Of a stretch of DNA of 25,357 nt, positions 2,956 through 16,174 are shown one piece after another. The stretch lies in the IMG/VR virus record IMGVR_UViG_3300006737_000186, positions 1 through 25,357 of that record; one strand, given 5' to 3'. Below the pieces are notes generated by a model. The model ran no database searches. It had not been told where the DNA came from and was given only the letters and a program-made list of their open reading frames with translations. Position 1 is the stretch's first letter. Each line of letters opens with the position of its first letter. The position numbers and the translations under genes are program-made. This DNA is from a virus.

Positions 2956-3699
2956 TTAAGAATATATGTTTAATTTGCTATTTAAATAGTTTCTAACTAA
3001 GTTTGATTGACCATCAGTTAAAGCACTACTATATATTAATACTTCGTATATGTGTCCTCTAAAACTAGACGTACCAGTGTTACTTGCTGCACCAACAAAT
3101 TTTATATCAAAAGCATTACTATCACTATTAAAAGATATTGTACTTTCTAAATTTCCGTTTATTTTTAAGGTAAAATTATTAGAGCTAGTGTCACTTGCAG
3201 AGGCCATTCGATATTCTAAAAGCTGTTTAGTTCCGTCAGTAGCTATGGCTGTAGACGCAGTAAATTGAGCAGGATTAGTAAATGCATTATTGGCTTTTAA
3301 TCTATGATTATTCGCATTATTACCTTGACCTATTCTTAAAAAGTCTGTACTATTATTAGAAGTAAGTAAACTGTTTGTTGCGGCAGCATCAGCAGAAATT
3401 GCTAAAAATATATGAAAAGAATTTAAAGTTATAGTAGAGTCTAACTCTAGAGAATCTTCATCAGAATCACCAAACCAAAGACCTCCACCGTCATCTAATC
3501 TAGGCCTATATGTATCAGCTGGATGACCTGCATCATTACCATTTCCTGATGAATCAGCCCAAGTGTCTATAGCTGCTGGGTCACTTGAAGAAGTTATACC
3601 TACGCCATTTTGAAGCCAAAGTTGTAAATTACTTATACTAGTTGGAATAAATTCAACTACTCCTCCTGCCTTAACATTACCTAATCCTAATCCTATCAT
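2956..3699 (-). CDS. LamG / concanavalin-like jelly-roll protein, probable virion or fibre component
   Basis: This 247-residue protein has the pattern of a LamG-like jelly roll: ISNLQLWLQNGVG near residues 23-34, then IDTWADSSGNGNDA near 44-57, several amphipathic strands, and the closing strand-helix GHIYEVLIYSSAL followed by an NLVRNYLNSKL helix. This W-x-D-x-SGNGNDA layout is common in carbohydrate-binding modules and in phage fibre or capsid decoration proteins. No signal peptide is visible, so by inference it is assembled inside the cell as part of the particle, not exported. It starts 2 bases after the stop of the thioredoxin-like gene and ends 1 base before the start of the T9SS-cargo gene, within the minus-strand operon. 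The ligand cannot be told from sequence. Fold is likely; role in the virion is inference. Confidence 0.72.
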   Translation of the reverse strand: MIGLGLGNVKAGGVVEFIPTSISNLQLWLQNGVGITSSSDPAAIDTWADSSGNGNDAGHPADTYRPRLDDGGGLWFGDSDEDSLELDSTITLNSFHIFLAISADAAATNSLLTSNNSTDFLRIGQGNNANNHRLKANNAFTNPAQFTASTAIATDGTKQLLEYRMASASDTSSNNFTLKINGNLESTISFNSDSNAFDIKFVGAASNTGTSSFRGHIYEVLIYSSALTDGQSNLVRNYLNSKLNIYS

Positions 3700-3701
3700 A
3701 A

Positions 3702-4025
3702 TTAAAATTTACTCATTATTAGTTCATCTATATACTCTTGAACTTCTTTTTTAGTAGCTACTAACTTAAAACTAAGGTCTGCCTGAAATCTTTTAACTTC
3801 TTCTCCCTCATCAAAAACAACTATTGTTGGAACAACAGCTATTTGATATTTAACTTGATTATTGTCTTTTTCTATTGAAAGAGATTCTTTTTCACAGTCT
3901 GATAGCTTGTTGAACCATGTCACGCTATTTGCTTCGTTGAATCCAGAATTAAAGTGAATTATTTTAACTTGACATAAACTTGATAGAGGTAATATTATTA
4001 ATAATAAAAAAAATATCTTTTTCAT
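3702..4025 (-). CDS. Exported thioredoxin-fold protein lacking the CXXC active site
   Basis: The 107-residue product begins with a signal peptide (MKKIFFLLLIILPLSSLCQ). The Cys sits at -1 after Leu, so this is not a good lipobox and cleavage before Gln is more likely. The remainder follows a thioredoxin fold: strand VKIIHFNSGF, a helix with W and F, then VVPTIVVFDEGEEVKRF, which matches the cis-Pro loop and the two following strands of thioredoxins, and a C-terminal helix. The usual WCGPC is replaced by SGFNEAN, so no dithiol redox centre exists; the remaining Cys residues are not paired as CXXC. By inference it acts in the periplasm as a binding or chaperone-like protein rather than a reductase. 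Its ATG overlaps the stop of the preceding gene as TAATG, suggesting coupled translation. Similar proteins are, from memory, frequent in marine Bacteroidetes phages; their function is not known. Confidence 0.72.
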   Translation of the reverse strand: MKKIFFLLLIILPLSSLCQVKIIHFNSGFNEANSVTWFNKLSDCEKESLSIEKDNNQVKYQIAVVPTIVVFDEGEEVKRFQADLSFKLVATKKEVQEYIDELIMSKF

Positions 4026-7670: not shown

Positions 7671-7985
7671 ATGAAAACAGAAGACCTTATTAAAGAGGTT
7701 GGCAATTCTGTAATAGATTTGCTAATCGAGAAAAACAGAGCCTACGGAGATAGCGCTACAAATCCATCAAACATATTTTCAAAGGGAAGCGCTATAGATA
7801 GTCTATGTGCTAGACTTGACGATAAGTTGATGAGAATAAAAAACAAAGGTATAAATGACCAAACAGAAGATACTATTAGTGACATCATAGGTTATTTAAT
7901 ACTTTTAAAAGTAGCCATAGCTAAAGAATCTAAAAATTTAGACAAAAAAGAATATCAATCTTTATACACAACATCATGGAGTTAA
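7671..7985 (+). CDS. DUF1599 / nucleotide-modification-associated domain protein
   Basis: The 104-residue product shows three motifs of the DUF1599 family (nucleotide modification associated domain 1, Pfam PF07659): KNRAYGDSA near residues 21-29, RLDDKLMRI near 48-56, and EDTISDIIGYLILL near 66-79. The acidic and basic residues in these helices resemble MazG-like nucleotide-binding proteins, and the family is common in phages. It probably takes part in nucleotide metabolism or DNA modification; the substrate is not known. The stop overlaps the likely start of the next gene as TAATG. The 40-base leader before the ATG is purely AT-rich (TTAATTAAATTAAATAAA) and shows no clear TAnnTTTG box, so it may be transcribed from the promoter before the fibre-like gene. 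Confidence 0.8.
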   Translation: MKTEDLIKEVGNSVIDLLIEKNRAYGDSATNPSNIFSKGSAIDSLCARLDDKLMRIKNKGINDQTEDTISDIIGYLILLKVAIAKESKNLDKKEYQSLYTTSWS

Positions 7986-8260
7986 TGGAAGACATAAAGC
8001 CTATTATAAGAAAAATTACTATAGGGGATATGAAGGAAGGGTTAACCTATGTTGTTGGTCAAACAATGATGAGAGGTCAACTTGAGGTTACTGCTATAGT
8101 TCAGGATGAAGCTGCGTGGTATAAACATCAACAAGTTGTTTATGATGTGTACGTTAAAAGAGAAGGAGAAAAATACTCAAAACCATGGAAAAGATTTTTT
8201 TCTCAACCAACTTCAATAGAGTTTGATATACAAGATAGAAACGAATATAATATAATGTAA
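7985..8260 (+). CDS. Conserved-type phage protein of unknown function
   Basis: The 91-residue product starts at the ATG at 7985 (MEDIKPIIRKIT), which overlaps the preceding stop as TAATG, the junction type used at three other places in the window. An in-frame ATG at 7976 would add MEL and overlap the preceding gene by 10 bases. The protein is a mixed alpha/beta sequence with IRKITIGDMKEGLTYVVGQTMMRG at the start and KPWKRFFSQPTSIEFDI at the end. No catalytic motif is seen. From memory similar proteins occur next to nucleotide-metabolism genes in marine phages, but no function is known. It lies 1 base before the co-chaperonin gene. Confidence 0.65.
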   Translation: MEDIKPIIRKITIGDMKEGLTYVVGQTMMRGQLEVTAIVQDEAAWYKHQQVVYDVYVKREGEKYSKPWKRFFSQPTSIEFDIQDRNEYNIM

Positions 8261-8261
8261 T

Positions 8262-8840
8262 ATGAAATTAATTAAAGATAAATTTTTAGTAAAGTTAGAA
8301 AAGTTAGTAGAAGATACCGTAAAAGTTAATGGTGTAGAGATGTATTTAGACTCTAGTTATGACCCTATGAGGTTTGCTAGACAGTATGGTGAGGTAGTTA
8401 TAGCTCCAGAAAGATTAACTAGTAAATATATGGATGTTAAGGTTGGAGATAGGATATACTTTCATCACTTTGTTGCTGACAAGAAAAATCAAATGGTTGA
8501 AGATGAGGATGGAAACTACATACTGCAAGTTGATGCAGGACAAATATATTGTGCTGTAAGGGATGAAGAGATAATTATGCAAAACTTTTGGTGTTTAGTT
8601 GAACAAAAAACAGAGTCAGAGAATAATTACAAAACTAACTCTGGGATATTTTTAAAGTCTACCATGGAGACAGAGGACCTTAGAGGATATTTAAGACACG
8701 CTAATCAAGAGATTTTAGATTATGGTGCTAAAATAAATGATGAGGTTATATTTTCAGAAAACTCTGAATACAACATGAATGTAGAGGGCAAGGAGCTTTT
8801 AAGAATGAGAAATATAGATATATTAGCTGTAATAGAGTAA
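8262..8840 (+). CDS. Tandem two-domain GroES-like co-chaperonin
   Basis: The 192-residue product contains two copies of the GroES (Cpn10) pattern. Domain 1 (about 1-107) has FLVKLEKLVEDT, GEVVIAPE at 43-50, VKVGDRIYFHHF at 59-70 and AVRDEEIIM near 98-106. Domain 2 (about 108-192) has FWCLVEQKTE, SGIFLKS at 127-133, which fits the hydrophobic IVL of the GroES mobile loop, GAKINDEVIFSENS near 155-168, and the very GroES-like end ELLRMRNIDILAVIE. GroES normally has one domain of about 95 residues, so the length is double. Phage co-chaperonins such as T4 gp31 pair with host GroEL to fold the major capsid protein; the same job is inferred here, next to packaging and capsid genes. Domain 1 lacks a clear GIxL loop and may not bind GroEL. 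The stop overlaps the next ATG as TAATG. Confidence 0.8.
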   Translation: MKLIKDKFLVKLEKLVEDTVKVNGVEMYLDSSYDPMRFARQYGEVVIAPERLTSKYMDVKVGDRIYFHHFVADKKNQMVEDEDGNYILQVDAGQIYCAVRDEEIIMQNFWCLVEQKTESENNYKTNSGIFLKSTMETEDLRGYLRHANQEILDYGAKINDEVIFSENSEYNMNVEGKELLRMRNIDILAVIE

Positions 8841-9124
8841 TGAGTATAGATGTAAACAAAAAACTAGAGGAGCTTATGCAGGCTGGTTTAGAGGCTTACG
8901 AAATACTTGTTGAAGAGATTAAAAGACCTTTAGACGAAGAGTTACAAGATGATAAAAGGCGTAACGCTATGAAGGCAAAAAAAGAATGTTTTCTTGACGC
9001 TAAAGACATACTTTCATCTATTAAAAAAATAGAAAATCAAATAAATGGAGAAGAAGACTCCGAAGAGTTAGAAGAAGAAAAAGCTTTTACTGCTGGGTTT
9101 GTAGAAAAATACGCTAAAAAATAA
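8840..9124 (+). CDS. Small charged helical protein; candidate small terminase subunit
   Basis: The 94-residue product is almost wholly helical and strongly charged, with a basic middle (DDKRRNAMKAKKECF) and an acidic tail (EEDSEELEEEK) that is followed by FTAGFVEKYAKK. No catalytic or helix-turn-helix motif can be named. Both ends use the one-base stop-start overlap TAATG, coupling it to the co-chaperonin upstream and to TerL downstream. A small protein immediately before TerL is the usual place of the small terminase subunit, which recognises DNA and regulates the motor; that assignment rests on position only. It could also be an unrelated accessory protein. Confidence 0.6.
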   Translation: MSIDVNKKLEELMQAGLEAYEILVEEIKRPLDEELQDDKRRNAMKAKKECFLDAKDILSSIKKIENQINGEEDSEELEEEKAFTAGFVEKYAKK

Positions 9125-11151
9125 TGCCTGAATTTGAAGAAATATCTGGAATAAAAATTCAGCTTCCTGAGAAGCCGAAAAAAAAAGATATACTATTTTC
9201 AAATCTTCCAAAGAAAAAACAAAAATGGTCCAGAACAGAAATGCCCTCTGGTCTTTCTCCTGATACAGCTTCAAAGTACGCTGATTTTATTAATCAAGAG
9301 TTTGATAGAAGAGCTAACGGGGTTTGGTTTATGAACAATGGTGTTCCTACTTACATTACTGGAGAGCATTATTATTATTTAAACTGGTGTAAATTAGATA
9401 TAGGATATCCAAACTACAGGGATAGAGATAGAAGATTCTATATGTTTTGGGACCACTGCACAAAAGACCCTGATTGCTTTGGTTTAGTGATGGTGAAACA
9501 TAGGCGTGAAGGAGCTTCTTATAAGGGTGCAGCCATGTTGTTATATGAGGTTACTGCAAATTACAATGCTCATGGAGGTATTATAAGTAAAACTGGTGCT
9601 GATGCTAAATCCCTGTTTACTGACAAAATGGTTTACATGTTTAGGAATCTTCCTTTTTTCTTTCAGCCTATCATTGATGGTTCTGACAATCCAAAGTCTA
9701 CATTAAGTTTTAATCAGCCAGGTCAAAAGATTAGTAAAAACTTTAAAACAGTAACTAAGTCTGAAGCTCTTAATTCTAAGATTGACTGGAGAAATACTAA
9801 GGAAAATTCATATGACTCCGTAAAGTTATTGAGATATTTATGTGATGAGGCAGGTAAGTGGGTTGACGCTAATGTAGAGAAGAACTGGGAAGTTGTTCGT
9901 TCTTGTTTAACTTTAGGTGATAAAATTATTGGTAAATGCTTTATGCCTTCTACTGTTAATGAGTTGTCAAAGTCTGGTGGAGAGAATTTTAAAAATCTTT
10001 GGTATGACAGTGACCCTCAAGATTTAGATGCAAATGGAAGAACTCGTTCTGGTCTATATCAGTATTTTACTCCAGCCTATGATGGATATGAAGGATTTAT
10101 TGATGAGTATGGTATGTCAGTTATAGAAACTCCAAATGAAGAGCAGTCTAAGTACATAAAAAAGACAATGGGTGCAAAAGAGTTTTTACAGAATATTAGA
10201 GACTCGTATAAAGACAATACATCTAAACTATCTGAAGAAAAGAGACAAAGACCCTTTAATATTGACGAAGCTTTTAGAAGTGATGTAAACAACAGTTTGT
10301 TCGATGTAGAAAGAATTTATCAACAAATAGATTTTAATAACTCGTCAAATCCTGTCACAGTTTATGGAGATTTTGTTTGGAAAGGAGGGATAGAAGACTC
10401 TGAAGTTATATGGCAACCAAGAAAAAATGGAAAGTTTCATATAGCATGGATACCGCCTAATGAAAGAAGAAACAAAAAGGACACTAAAAATGGTAGGCTA
10501 TATCCAGGGAATCATGTTGAGTTAGTAGCTGGATGTGACCCCTATGACCACGACACTACGACAGACGGTAGAAGGTCTGATGCGGCAGCATATGTATATA
10601 AAAAATTCTCAATGATGGATGATTTTTCTAGTGTTTTTGTATGTGAATATATACACAGACCACCAAAAGCTGATATTTTTTATGAAGATATGATAAAAAT
10701 GTGTTATTTTTACGGCTGCCAAATACTTGTTGAAAATAATAAGGTTGGTATTATAAAGTATTTTGAAAGAAGAGGCTATAATAATTATCTAATGGACAGA
10801 CCTGAATCAACTCACACATCGTCTAGTAGGTCGCAAAAAACAAAAGGTATACCTAGTACAGGTGCTGCTGTTTTAACTGCTCAAGCCGAAGCTATTTCAT
10901 CTTACATATATGACCATGTTGGAATTAACAACGAAACTGGCGAAATGGGTAGATGTTATTTTAATAAGTTACTAGAAGATTGGAGTAAGTTTGAAATAGA
11001 TAACAGAACTAAATATGATGCTACAGTAGCCTCTAGTATAGCTTTACTTGCAGCTCAAAAATTTGTAAAGCCCAAAAGTAAGCAAACTTTTAATATGAAT
11101 AAGTTTGTAAAAAAATATAAAAATACAGGATTAATATCTAAAAGAATATGA
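9124..11151 (+). CDS. terL: Terminase large subunit (DNA packaging ATPase and nuclease)
   Basis: The 675-residue protein has the two-domain layout of large terminases. In the ATPase half, the Walker A place is taken by VKHRREGASYKG (about 124-135), an atypical form with R-x-x-G-x-S, and Walker B is RYLCDEAGKW with Asp241 and Glu242. MPSTVNE near 274-280 fits the coupling motif. In the RuvC/RNase H-like nuclease half, acidic residues lie at GCDPYD (Asp472), LVENNKVG (Glu537) and KYDATVAS (Asp632), the usual D...E...D order. It would dock on the portal and pump DNA into the prohead with ATP, then cut it. It overlaps the preceding gene as TAATG and the portal gene by four bases as ATGA. Length is large but within the range of Bacteroidetes podophages. 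Confidence is high. Confidence 0.95.
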   Translation: MPEFEEISGIKIQLPEKPKKKDILFSNLPKKKQKWSRTEMPSGLSPDTASKYADFINQEFDRRANGVWFMNNGVPTYITGEHYYYLNWCKLDIGYPNYRDRDRRFYMFWDHCTKDPDCFGLVMVKHRREGASYKGAAMLLYEVTANYNAHGGIISKTGADAKSLFTDKMVYMFRNLPFFFQPIIDGSDNPKSTLSFNQPGQKISKNFKTVTKSEALNSKIDWRNTKENSYDSVKLLRYLCDEAGKWVDANVEKNWEVVRSCLTLGDKIIGKCFMPSTVNELSKSGGENFKNLWYDSDPQDLDANGRTRSGLYQYFTPAYDGYEGFIDEYGMSVIETPNEEQSKYIKKTMGAKEFLQNIRDSYKDNTSKLSEEKRQRPFNIDEAFRSDVNNSLFDVERIYQQIDFNNSSNPVTVYGDFVWKGGIEDSEVIWQPRKNGKFHIAWIPPNERRNKKDTKNGRLYPGNHVELVAGCDPYDHDTTTDGRRSDAAAYVYKKFSMMDDFSSVFVCEYIHRPPKADIFYEDMIKMCYFYGCQILVENNKVGIIKYFERRGYNNYLMDRPESTHTSSSRSQKTKGIPSTGAAVLTAQAEAISSYIYDHVGINNETGEMGRCYFNKLLEDWSKFEIDNRTKYDATVASSIALLAAQKFVKPKSKQTFNMNKFVKKYKNTGLISKRI

Positions 11152-13538
11152 AGATTAAGTTTGAAACTATAGGAGGATATCCTACACCATTCGTTAGTAA
11201 TGAAGAAAAAGCCTCTAACGAATATGGTTTACAATATTTTAAAACCATGTATAAGGATTATCAAAAAACAGGAGAGTCCACCTACACAGCTAAAAGAAGA
11301 AGAATGGAAAATTCTAGAAAGTATGCTGAAGGTATTCAAGATGTTTCAAAGTACAAAGACCTTTTAGATGTTGAGGGAGATACATCATTTATGAATATAG
11401 ACTGGACTCCAGTTAGTATTATACCTAAATTCGTTGATGTAATAGTTGGTGATTTATCTAATCAAGCATTAGAAATAAAAGCAAGAGCTGTAGACAGTTC
11501 ATCTGAGCAAGTTAGAATTACTGAAAAGAATAATCTAATGTTAAAAATGATGAACAAAGATTTTTTAGCTGAACTGTCAAAGATTACAAGAATGGACTAT
11601 AATCCAAAAGGATTTGTTCCTGAGTCAAGTGAAGAGCTTGACTTATATATGCAACTAACCTACAAGCAATCTCATGAAATAGCCTTAGAGGAAGGTATAC
11701 AGTTTGTAACACAACAGAACGATTTTGACGAAACAAAAAGAAGAGTTTTAAGAGATTTAATAGTTGTAGGTCAGGGAGCTGTCAAAACATCTATATGTCC
11801 ATCAAAAGGTGTTAAGATAAAATATGTAGACCCAGGCAACTTAATAACCTCTAACTCCGCATCACCATCTTTTGAAAACATTCAACATGCTGGAGAGATA
11901 TATAGAGTAACTATAGCTGAGTTAAAACAAATGGCTGGCAGTCAGTTTACAGATAAGGAATATAAGGAGATAGCTGAGAAATACGGTAAAAAAATATCTA
12001 ATACAAGATATGGTATTGGATTTGATGCAAGTAACTCCAAGTATGTTAGCGAATATGATGAGTTTTCTGTAGAAATATTAGATGCTGAATTTATGAGCAA
12101 CTATTATTTAAAGTACGAAAAAAAGATGAACAACTTTGGTGGGTATTCTTTAAACAGAAGAAAACTAAATCAGAAAGTTAATGAAAATGAAAAAAGACAA
12201 GTTGTTCAAAATACTGTAAAAGCTGTATACTCTGGTAAGTATATTGTAGGAAGTGATTATGTTTTTGATTATGGTTTAGCTAAAAATATGATGAGACCAA
12301 AGTCTGATTTATCACAAACTAGATTATCTTACATAGTTTACGCACCACACATTAGAAGAGGTAGAAATGTTTCTTTAGTAGAAAGAATGTTGCCTTTTGC
12401 TGACCAAATACAACTTGCACATTATAAGATGCAACAGCTTTTAGCTAAAGCTAGACCAAAAGGTGCTGCTTTTGAAATAGGCTCATTAGAAAACGTATCT
12501 AAAGGTGACGGAGGTAATTTTACTCCTTTAGAGTTACAAGAAATATTCGACCAAACTGGTAATATATATTTTAGAAGAACTGATGATGAAGGTAATCAGA
12601 CTCAGTCTATGCCTATAGTAGAGCTAGAGAATGGTATAGGTAATGACATCAGCAAACTTATAAGTATATATCAGCATAATCTACAAATGATTAGAGATGT
12701 GACTGGTGTTAATGAAGCTAGAGATGCTTCTAAACCATCATCAGATGCTTTAGTTGGCGTTCAAAAATTATCGTTAGCTGCCTCTAATAATGCTACTAGA
12801 TTTATAAATCAAGGATATTTAAATATTATTAAAAGAACAGGTCAGTCTATTTGTATGAGGCTTCAAGATTTACTGAAATATAATAAACCTTTAAAAGGAT
12901 ATATATCAGCACTTGGAGATACCACAATAAAAAACATAGAGCTAAGTAAAGACTTATCTATATATGACTTTGGTATATTTATAGAAGTTGCTCCTGACGC
13001 ACAAGAAAAACAAGTTTTAGAACAGAATATACAAGTTTCTTTAGCTCAGAAAGAGTTGAGGTTAGAAGATGCTATAGCTATACGTTCTGTCGTAAATACA
13101 AAACTAGCTAATCAAATGCTTGTTCTTAGAAGAAAGAAATATCAAGAAGAATTAATGGAGCAAGCTAAGAAGAACGCAGAAAATAATGCTATGCAACAAC
13201 AACAATCTATACAAGCTGCTTCTCAAGCTAAGCAACAGGAAATGCAGACTAAAATGCAGATTGAACAATCTAATGCACAGATAGAACTACAGACTAAGAT
13301 GCAGTTGCTACAAGCTGAGTTTGAGTTAAAAAATAATTTAGCCCAAGCTGAGCACGAAAGAAGAATGGCTGAGTTGCAGATTAGTGGTTCTGTAAAAGAA
13401 AAAGCTAACAAGGCTTTAGGTAGCTCTAGAGAAGGCTCTATCGAAAAGAGTGCTTATTTCCAATCTCAAATGATTGAGCAAAGAAAAGATAAGCGTGGAC
13501 CAATAGAAGACCCTGATAGAATTTTACCAGAAATGTAA
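11148..13538 (+). CDS. Portal protein
   Basis: The 796-residue protein directly follows TerL with an ATGA overlap, the standard portal position. The body is mixed alpha/beta, with FMNIDWTPVSIIPKFVDVIVG near 85-105, a membrane-free core, DPGNLITSNSAS, and the long helix-rich MIRDVTGVNEARDASKPSSDALVG segment near 515-540, which matches the stem/wing region of many portals (the TGVNEA...P...G pattern is frequent there). From about residue 665 to 755 there is a Gln-, Glu- and Lys-rich coiled coil (AMQQQQSIQAASQAKQQ), as in large podovirus and crAss-like portals, and a polar end IEDPDRILPEM. It forms the dodecameric channel at one capsid vertex. The start ATG is fixed by the overlap. Confidence 0.9.
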   Translation: MKIKFETIGGYPTPFVSNEEKASNEYGLQYFKTMYKDYQKTGESTYTAKRRRMENSRKYAEGIQDVSKYKDLLDVEGDTSFMNIDWTPVSIIPKFVDVIVGDLSNQALEIKARAVDSSSEQVRITEKNNLMLKMMNKDFLAELSKITRMDYNPKGFVPESSEELDLYMQLTYKQSHEIALEEGIQFVTQQNDFDETKRRVLRDLIVVGQGAVKTSICPSKGVKIKYVDPGNLITSNSASPSFENIQHAGEIYRVTIAELKQMAGSQFTDKEYKEIAEKYGKKISNTRYGIGFDASNSKYVSEYDEFSVEILDAEFMSNYYLKYEKKMNNFGGYSLNRRKLNQKVNENEKRQVVQNTVKAVYSGKYIVGSDYVFDYGLAKNMMRPKSDLSQTRLSYIVYAPHIRRGRNVSLVERMLPFADQIQLAHYKMQQLLAKARPKGAAFEIGSLENVSKGDGGNFTPLELQEIFDQTGNIYFRRTDDEGNQTQSMPIVELENGIGNDISKLISIYQHNLQMIRDVTGVNEARDASKPSSDALVGVQKLSLAASNNATRFINQGYLNIIKRTGQSICMRLQDLLKYNKPLKGYISALGDTTIKNIELSKDLSIYDFGIFIEVAPDAQEKQVLEQNIQVSLAQKELRLEDAIAIRSVVNTKLANQMLVLRRKKYQEELMEQAKKNAENNAMQQQQSIQAASQAKQQEMQTKMQIEQSNAQIELQTKMQLLQAEFELKNNLAQAEHERRMAELQISGSVKEKANKALGSSREGSIEKSAYFQSQMIEQRKDKRGPIEDPDRILPEM

Positions 13539-14749: not shown

Positions 14750-16174
14750 ATGAGTACTGTTTCTTTAGCTAGTGGAATGACGTTGAGACCAACGGCAGTT
14801 CAAACAGCTACAAACGAAAACTATGTAAGTGCATTGACAGCAACGTCTGGTGCTTTACATAAAAGAGACGTTTCTGAAGAGTTAGTAAAAAGATATGGAG
14901 ACCAAGGTATTACTGGTCTTCTAGAGTTAATGGGTGCAAAAGCTCCTACTACTCAAACTACTTTTGAACACTACGAAGAAGCTTTCTTACACAATGATGT
15001 TATATTCCGATTTGATACATCTGTATCAGCAGCAGGTACTGCATCGGAAGCAATAACTGTTCAATCAAGTTCTTTACATGACTCTAAGTCTTCTTTACGA
15101 GTAGGAGATATTCTTTTACTAGAAGACAACACTCAGTGTTATGTTCAAGCTAAAAGCTCGCAAACTGCGGCTGTAATATATCCATTAACTTCTAGTGGTT
15201 TTGTTTCAGCTTTCAGTACAGGAGTAGATGTAAATGCAGTTATTATTGGTAATGCTTTCCCAGAAGGGTCTGCACAACCAGAAGGATTAACTCCTCGTAT
15301 CCATGAATACTCTAACAAAGTTCAGATTTTAAAAGAATCTTTTGAGGTTACTGGTTCAGAAGCTACTAACGTAATCTATGTAAAAGTAGATAACGAAGAG
15401 ATGGGTTCTGGTTACTTATGGTACCTAAAAGGTGAAGCTGATACTTTCAAGAGATTCCAAGATTATGCTGAGATTCAAATGATTCTTGGTAATACTATTA
15501 GTAACACTAACTTAACAGGCACAAGTTCTACTTTTGATGGAACATCTTATTCTAACAGCACTTTAAGACAGTCTGAAGGATTATTATCATTCATTGAAAA
15601 TAAAGGTCAGTCTATGGATTTAGGCTCTTCTGCTATTACAATGGCTGATTTTGACGCTATCGTTAAGTCTTTAGATAAATTTAGAGGTGCTAAAGAAAAT
15701 GCTCTTTACGCTGGTATTAACTTATCTTTAGATATTGATGACTTATTAGCTGCTCAAAGTGTTGTGGCTGCTGGTGGTGCTAACTATGGTACTTTCCAAA
15801 ATGATAAGGATATGGCTCTAAACTTAGGTTTCAACTCTTTCACAAGAGGTGGTTATACTTTCCACAAGAAAACTTATGACTTATTTAATCACCCTAAATT
15901 ACTAGGTGCTACAGGTCAGAAGTACAATGGTTATGGTATGGTTATTCCTATGGATACTCAAAAAGATGCTCGTAGCGGTGAAATGATTCCTTCATTAAGA
16001 ATCCGTTATAAAGCTGCTAATGGTTATTCAAGAGATATGGAACACTGGTTAACAGGTTCTGCTGTTCTACAAAACAAAACTAATACAGAAGATGTATTAA
16101 AGTCACACTATCGTTGTGAAAGAGGTTTTGAAGGATTTGCGGCTAACCGTTACATGTTAATCAAGAAATCTTAA
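14750..16174 (+). CDS. Major capsid protein
   Basis: The 474-residue product follows the scaffold gene by 32 bases. The N-terminal arm is Ser/Thr-rich, then VSEELVKRYGDQGITGLLELMGAKAP near 40-66 and an aromatic FEHYEE strand near 72 give the look of an HK97-type coat protein of the crAss-like and Cellulophaga podophage kind. Later there are E-loop-like and A-domain-like segments such as VQILKESFEVTGSEATNVIY and RIRYKAANGYSRDMEHWLTG near 410-435. Codon use is less AT-extreme than in many neighbours, with more C at third positions in words such as TTC, as expected for a highly expressed gene. The ATG sits after a long AT leader (AATTAATTAATAATTTT). Role and position agree; the fold is inferred. 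Confidence 0.88.
   Translation: MSTVSLASGMTLRPTAVQTATNENYVSALTATSGALHKRDVSEELVKRYGDQGITGLLELMGAKAPTTQTTFEHYEEAFLHNDVIFRFDTSVSAAGTASEAITVQSSSLHDSKSSLRVGDILLLEDNTQCYVQAKSSQTAAVIYPLTSSGFVSAFSTGVDVNAVIIGNAFPEGSAQPEGLTPRIHEYSNKVQILKESFEVTGSEATNVIYVKVDNEEMGSGYLWYLKGEADTFKRFQDYAEIQMILGNTISNTNLTGTSSTFDGTSYSNSTLRQSEGLLSFIENKGQSMDLGSSAITMADFDAIVKSLDKFRGAKENALYAGINLSLDIDDLLAAQSVVAAGGANYGTFQNDKDMALNLGFNSFTRGGYTFHKKTYDLFNHPKLLGATGQKYNGYGMVIPMDTQKDARSGEMIPSLRIRYKAANGYSRDMEHWLTGSAVLQNKTNTEDVLKSHYRCERGFEGFAANRYMLIKKS

Follow-up and report, generated by a model that had tools for sequence, protein, structure and literature searches.

The window, by which we mean the whole analysed stretch of 25,357 nucleotides (IMG/VR record IMGVR_UViG_3300006737_000186), is a 25-kb fragment from a virus that infects marine Flavobacteria-type bacteria. 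Its plus strand carries a 192-residue open reading frame (ORF) with an ATG start and a TAA stop, packed tightly between two ORFs of 94 residues and followed by the genes of the head operon (Table 1). A sequence-only reading had described the product as a phage co-chaperonin made of two GroES-like domains in tandem, and both the SGIFLKS motif and the terminus ELLRMRNIDILAVIE that it quoted are present in the translation. In 134 of 140 loci the gene for the terminase large subunit (TerL) lies downstream of the tandem gene and is read in the same direction. A small ORF is also found upstream of the tandem gene in the phages phi38:1, phi18:3 and elemoF, and another stands between the tandem gene and TerL in phi18:3 and MW202828; the corresponding ORF of the window is a candidate for the small terminase, by position only.

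Table 1. Features of the tandem Cpn10 gene and of the neighbouring head genes in the window
Feature	Position	Strand	Evidence
ORF of 94 aa directly upstream of the tandem gene	7976..8260	+	ORF list
Tandem Cpn10 (Cpn20-like) co-chaperonin gene, 192 aa	8262..8840	+	ORF, profiles, fold model
Domain 1, residues 1-103, diverged Cpn10 fold, GDxxxFHHxV kept	8262..8570	+	phrog_13932 4.7e-9; fold; profile
Domain 1 loop region, residues 15-42, LVEDTVKVNGVEMYLDSSYDPMRFARQY	8304..8387	+	Length and hydrophobic pattern kept across representatives
Domain 2, residues 104-192, recognisable Cpn10	8571..8837	+	Pfam 2.9e-7; PDB GroES 8wuc 6e-5
Domain 2 mobile loop, residues 116-141, TNSGIFLKS	8607..8684	+	pLDDT 55-57, lowest of the model
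ORF of 94 aa between the tandem gene and TerL (candidate small terminase)	8840..9124	+	ORF list, profile search
Terminase large subunit (TerL)	9124..11151	+	phrog_6681 6e-154
Portal protein	11148..13538	+	phrog_6547 2e-135
Major capsid protein, SU10 type	14750..16174	+	PF17236 1.3e-10

Three other ORFs of the window, noted in passing, lie on the minus strand. One of 620 residues (1092-2954) has an apparent signal peptide and repeated Cys-rich GC.D..A.NYN units and gave no match in Pfam or NCBIfam; its end (YPNPTKDYINF...) resembles, by eye, a type IX secretion sorting domain, which is odd in a phage protein. The ORF of 247 residues (2956-3699) shows a sub-threshold Laminin_G_3 / concanavalin-A-like match (2e-5) and is perhaps a receptor-binding protein, and that of 107 residues (3702-4025) combines a signal-peptide-like start with a weak thioredoxin match (0.0019).

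The whole 192-residue protein matches the Pfam Cpn10 family (PF00166) in two stretches with an E-value of 1.9e-10 and 41 bits (cut-off 21.1), and its residues 6-191 align with positions 5-199 of PHROG 13932, a family of 200 positions annotated as 'co-chaperonin GroES' (E 3.1e-20). It had been proposed that each half be searched on its own; the expectation held for the C half (E 2.9e-7, 30.9 bits) and failed by the cut-off for the N half, which reached only 0.019 with Pfam. The same applies to the wider family, for which 65 full-length representatives were left once near-copies of the listed IMG/VR loci had been removed: the N halves of 7 of the 65 match Pfam Cpn10 at E < 0.01, the best at 2.4e-4, and a sequence search with the N-half profile found no GroES in the PDB. 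Against the single-domain Cpn10s that related phages encode, the N-half profile aligns along its length (hhalign E 1.1e-6, probability 83%). Its match to one sequence of E. coli GroES, the yardstick used here, in the search of phage records and in the tree, is weak (probability 2.6%) yet collinear across 84 columns, and the match of the N to the C profile is likewise weak (5.4%). As judged from its sequence, the N half is strongly diverged from Cpn10.

The structure prediction that had been suggested as a check was carried out with AlphaFold2 on a 19-sequence alignment and gave a model with pLDDT 80.4 and pTM 0.75; a single-sequence model (pLDDT 34) was discarded. In the PDB the fold of the model is matched best, and at full length, by two tandem co-chaperonins from the chloroplast of Chlamydomonas, 7ekq_R and 7ekq_Q (E 2.3e-5 and 4.8e-5, 213-215 columns, TM 0.55-0.59 by query length), of which 7ekq_R carries the name Cpn20 co-chaperonin subunit. 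Every single-domain GroES ranks below these two and T4 gp31 appears far down the list (E 0.27). The parallel with chloroplast Cpn20, which had been drawn from the letters of the sequence, is thus reached independently by the fold search. The four best viral fold matches all exceed one domain (183-304 residues) and include the 'chaperonin cpn10' of phi18:3 (200 aa, TM 0.71). On account of the full-length Cpn20 fold match, the viral matches longer than one domain and the profile match to phage Cpn10s, the presence of two Cpn10 folds in tandem is well supported, with the fold model and the family carrying more weight than the N half's own sequence. The N half, for which the lack of a Cpn10 fold or profile match would have refuted the tandem reading, has both, its sequence signal being weak; profile, fold and phylogeny (see below) agree on the tandem arrangement.

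The reading frame is uninterrupted in 10 near relatives with 76-95% identity, and in comparisons of the window with its near relatives the N half has a dN/dS of 0.05-0.10 and the C half one of 0.05-0.11, which indicates purifying selection on both. These values, together with the unbroken frame, rule out the N domain as a decaying or chance ORF. An assembly artefact is similarly ruled out as the source of the fusion, which occurs in complete isolate genomes.

The tandem family comprises at least 232 IMG/VR loci in one alignment-based scan. A search of the phage collection with one family member matched 85 records, from 68 Flavobacterium phages, 15 Cellulophaga phages, one Maribacter phage and one uncultured complete genome, in which the protein is annotated as 'co-chaperonin GroES', 'chaperonin cpn10' or 'hypothetical protein'. 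Short-pattern scans of bacterial genomes gave no tandem homologue, a result limited by the patterns and no proof of absence. In a tree with single-domain Cpn10s, the N domains all group in a single clade (100/99) and the C domains in another (98/98), and the fusion is therefore ancient and most simply happened once, early in the family; the tree has few columns, contains some long branches among the single-domain Cpn10s and includes no plant Cpn20. Proteins with three Cpn10 domains were observed at two loci, L138:615-1604 (330 aa) and L139:3986-4987 (334 aa), the loop of the third domain being canonical in both (TDSGIELK and TESGIYLK, respectively); the L139 record additionally encodes a separate single Cpn10. 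A three-domain query found no relative among the annotated phages. A 71.5-kb contig (G017, the record of L083) carries two different tandem Cpn10 genes on the minus strand (L174:689-1270 and L176:1073-1654), and the 96-aa ORFs that follow the two closely resemble each other; the arrangement reflects either the duplication of a cassette or a chimera in the contig.

The loops, by which co-chaperonins attach to GroEL, had been described as changed in the first domain and kept in the second. This is correct for the window protein at the level of motifs, and the reverse holds across the family. A hydrophobic tripeptide of the GroEL-binding type is recognisable by sequence pattern in both domains, as SGIFL in domain 2 and, in a changed context, as GVEMYL in domain 1, where the loop reads NGVEMYLD and retains the G-hydrophobic-x-hydrophobic pattern. 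Throughout the 65 representatives the domain 1 loop region measures 29-32 residues and conserves Gly-hydrophobic-x-hydrophobic; the first loop is diverged, not lost. The domain 2 loop measures anything between 17 and 40 residues; in 26 of the 65 it is shortened, to 21 or fewer, and it carries an (S/G/A)G-hydrophobic motif, by the pattern used, in 8 of the 65. That of the window protein is intact, and its low pLDDT in the model is as expected for a mobile loop. Domain 1 also carries a motif, GDxxxFHHxV (residues 62-71; 8445-8474), at the place where GroES has VGDIVIFNDGYG; G62 and H68 are invariant among the 65 representatives, and the cultured phi18:3 is without the domain 1 His.

A separate single-domain Cpn10 accompanies the tandem gene in all nine isolate or complete genomes searched (phi38:1, Calle_1, phi18:3, phi19:3, phi13:2, phi46:3, elemoF 6-3D, MW202828 and Panino), which correspond to perhaps five lineages and are not nine independent cases. 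GroEL is encoded in five of the nine, and phage GroEL adjoins or stands near the single Cpn10 in related genomes. Among 30 metagenomic contigs, a separate Cpn10 was found in eight, two of them the IMG/VR copies of phi38:1 and Calle_1; six tandem-bearing contigs of 61-72 kb have no detectable single Cpn10, and neither a single Cpn10 nor GroEL was found in the 32-36 kb relatives of the window. As a rough comparison, the E. coli GroES query matches 89 of 50,697 phage records, and of the 2,429 reference virus genomes in an earlier survey 7 had chaperonins (PMC5332604). Four long records in which the second loop is shortened could be checked (G021, G026, elemoF and MW202828), and all of them have a single Cpn10, which is no more than suggestive of an association between the two; the single-domain Cpn10 of G026 matches PHROG 3188, so that this record carries both kinds of co-chaperonin. 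Homologues of the window's type of major capsid protein occur in 85 phage records with a genus make-up equal to that of the 85 with the tandem gene, and TerL homologues in 131. This co-occurrence fits a capsid client and is no proof of it, since head genes descend together.

To the features computed here, namely the tandem architecture, the old fusion, the selection on both halves, the place in the head operon and the presence, in relatives, of a single Cpn10 and often of GroEL, we attach the following reading, with a probability of about 0.75: the protein is a Cpn20-like phage co-chaperonin which lids GroEL and assists in the folding of head proteins, probably in a mixed ring of three tandem chains and one single-domain Cpn10. 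We infer GroEL binding, the composition of the ring and the capsid protein as client. The protein would act as GroES or T4 gp31 do, contributing to a lid of about seven Cpn10 domains whose mobile loops would attach it to the GroEL ring of the host or of the phage, and under the lid the head proteins of the phage would be enclosed while folding, the SU10-type major capsid protein being the most likely client. As isolated phages of the family encode a single-domain partner, the most economical ring would combine one such partner with three tandem chains (3 x 2 + 1 = 7). Working seven-domain hetero-oligomers of Cpn20 and Cpn10 are known from Chlamydomonas, according to a passage in PMC5780408 that cites Tsai 2012. 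Binding to GroEL needs at least four working GroES subunits of the seven (PMC4242682), and the mixed ring would retain four working loops even with the second loop shortened. A stronger version, which we regard as doubtful, makes the mixed lid obligate: the lineages with a short second loop would keep exactly the four working loops of the reported minimum (three from domain 1 and one from the single Cpn10), in an asymmetric lid shaped for the capsid protein. If true, the phages would possess a two-component, chloroplast-like co-chaperonin. The six contigs of 61-72 kb without a single Cpn10 indicate that the ring of three plus one is not general, unless host GroES supplies the single domain.

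These contigs are equally relevant to the alternative that the tandem protein forms homo-oligomers only, with four chains (eight domains) or three (six domains) placed on the seven-fold GroEL and the single Cpn10 being an independent, ordinary GroES. Such rings, with one domain left out of the seven-fold binding, are reported for the Cpn20 of Arabidopsis and Plasmodium, and homo-oligomeric Cpn20, mostly tetrameric, is functional (PMC3542282; PMC5780408); the window protein, too, has loops in both domains that look usable. However, a single Cpn10 is present in every one of the nine isolate or complete genomes, and homo-oligomers of chains with a shortened second loop would have no more than three or four working loops, a number that does not exceed the reported minimum. 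A ring of the tandem protein alone is hence possible though rather unlikely, and the mixed ring with the separate single Cpn10 is the more likely arrangement.

It is improbable that only the C domain recalls GroES, the N domain having lost co-chaperonin function and serving as a structural or head-assembly adaptor, with a GroES-like beta barrel used in packaging. The far-diverged N domain with its invariant FHH-type motif, and the contact of the tandem gene with TerL in several genomes, would suit such a role, but across the family the N-domain loop is conserved and shortening affects the C-domain loop, the opposite of what an adaptor would lead one to expect; moreover, the phi18:3 record marks portal and tail proteins as detected by MS/MS and the tandem protein by similarity only, with no sign of its being a virion part. 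More improbable still is a lid or regulator of another seven-fold machine, such as the host ClpP protease, by which the phage would block or redirect proteolysis: the top fold matches 7ekq R and Q are indeed Cpn20-type subunits seated on chloroplast ClpP, with inhibition stated in the title of the source preprint cited in PMC8889267, but they are GroEL-type co-chaperonins as well, so that the match follows from the fold, and the GroEL genes of five of the nine related genomes, adjoining or near the single Cpn10, and the place of the tandem gene in the head operon argue against it.

Earlier papers note Cpn10 in Pervagoviridae and, for this phage group, GroEL (PMC8776804; PMC5332604; PMC11590407), and the gene family itself is already in PHROGs and RefSeq. 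In our literature search, two-domain Cpn10 was described only from chloroplasts and apicoplasts (PMC3542282, PMC5780408) and not from phages, which is no proof, most subscription papers having been outside its reach. The large and apparently independent tandem family of flavobacterial phages, with its single Cpn10, sometimes GroEL, and three-domain forms, offers a second natural experiment on how lids of fused domains cope with the seven-fold GroEL, and cultured pairs (Cellulophaga phi38:1 and phi18:3, the Flavobacterium elemo phages and Maribacter Panino) open the ring composition, the number of loops and the demand for capsid folding to direct testing.

Among the known systems, PHROG 13932 and the RefSeq co-chaperonin GroES of the Cellulophaga phages phi38:1 and phi18:3 belong to the same family as the window protein, with a full-length profile match and the same place before TerL and portal, the window protein being about 25% identical to phi38:1 gp089; their annotation is silent on the two domains and on the parallel with Cpn20. 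The single-domain phage co-chaperonins (PHROG 3188, T4 gp31 and RB49 CocO) share with the window protein the Cpn10 fold, the encoding by a phage and the proposed role in capsid folding, but have one domain as against two. T4 gp31 is a single domain of about 110 residues that substitutes for GroES in the folding of gp23, and the window protein falls outside the gp31-type class by its two domains and its weak fold match to gp31. A further likeness is to Cpn20 of chloroplasts and apicoplasts, which, like the phage family, has two head-to-tail Cpn10 domains in about 190-200 residues, and a separate single-domain Cpn10, often with GroEL, in the same genome of related phages adds to the resemblance. 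However, identity to Cpn20 (7ekq R/Q) in the fold alignment is only 12-15%, the phage family differs in its often shortened second loop, its domain 1 FHH motif and its three-domain versions, and the phage fusion looks like an ancient event of its own, as seen in a tree that held no plant Cpn20.
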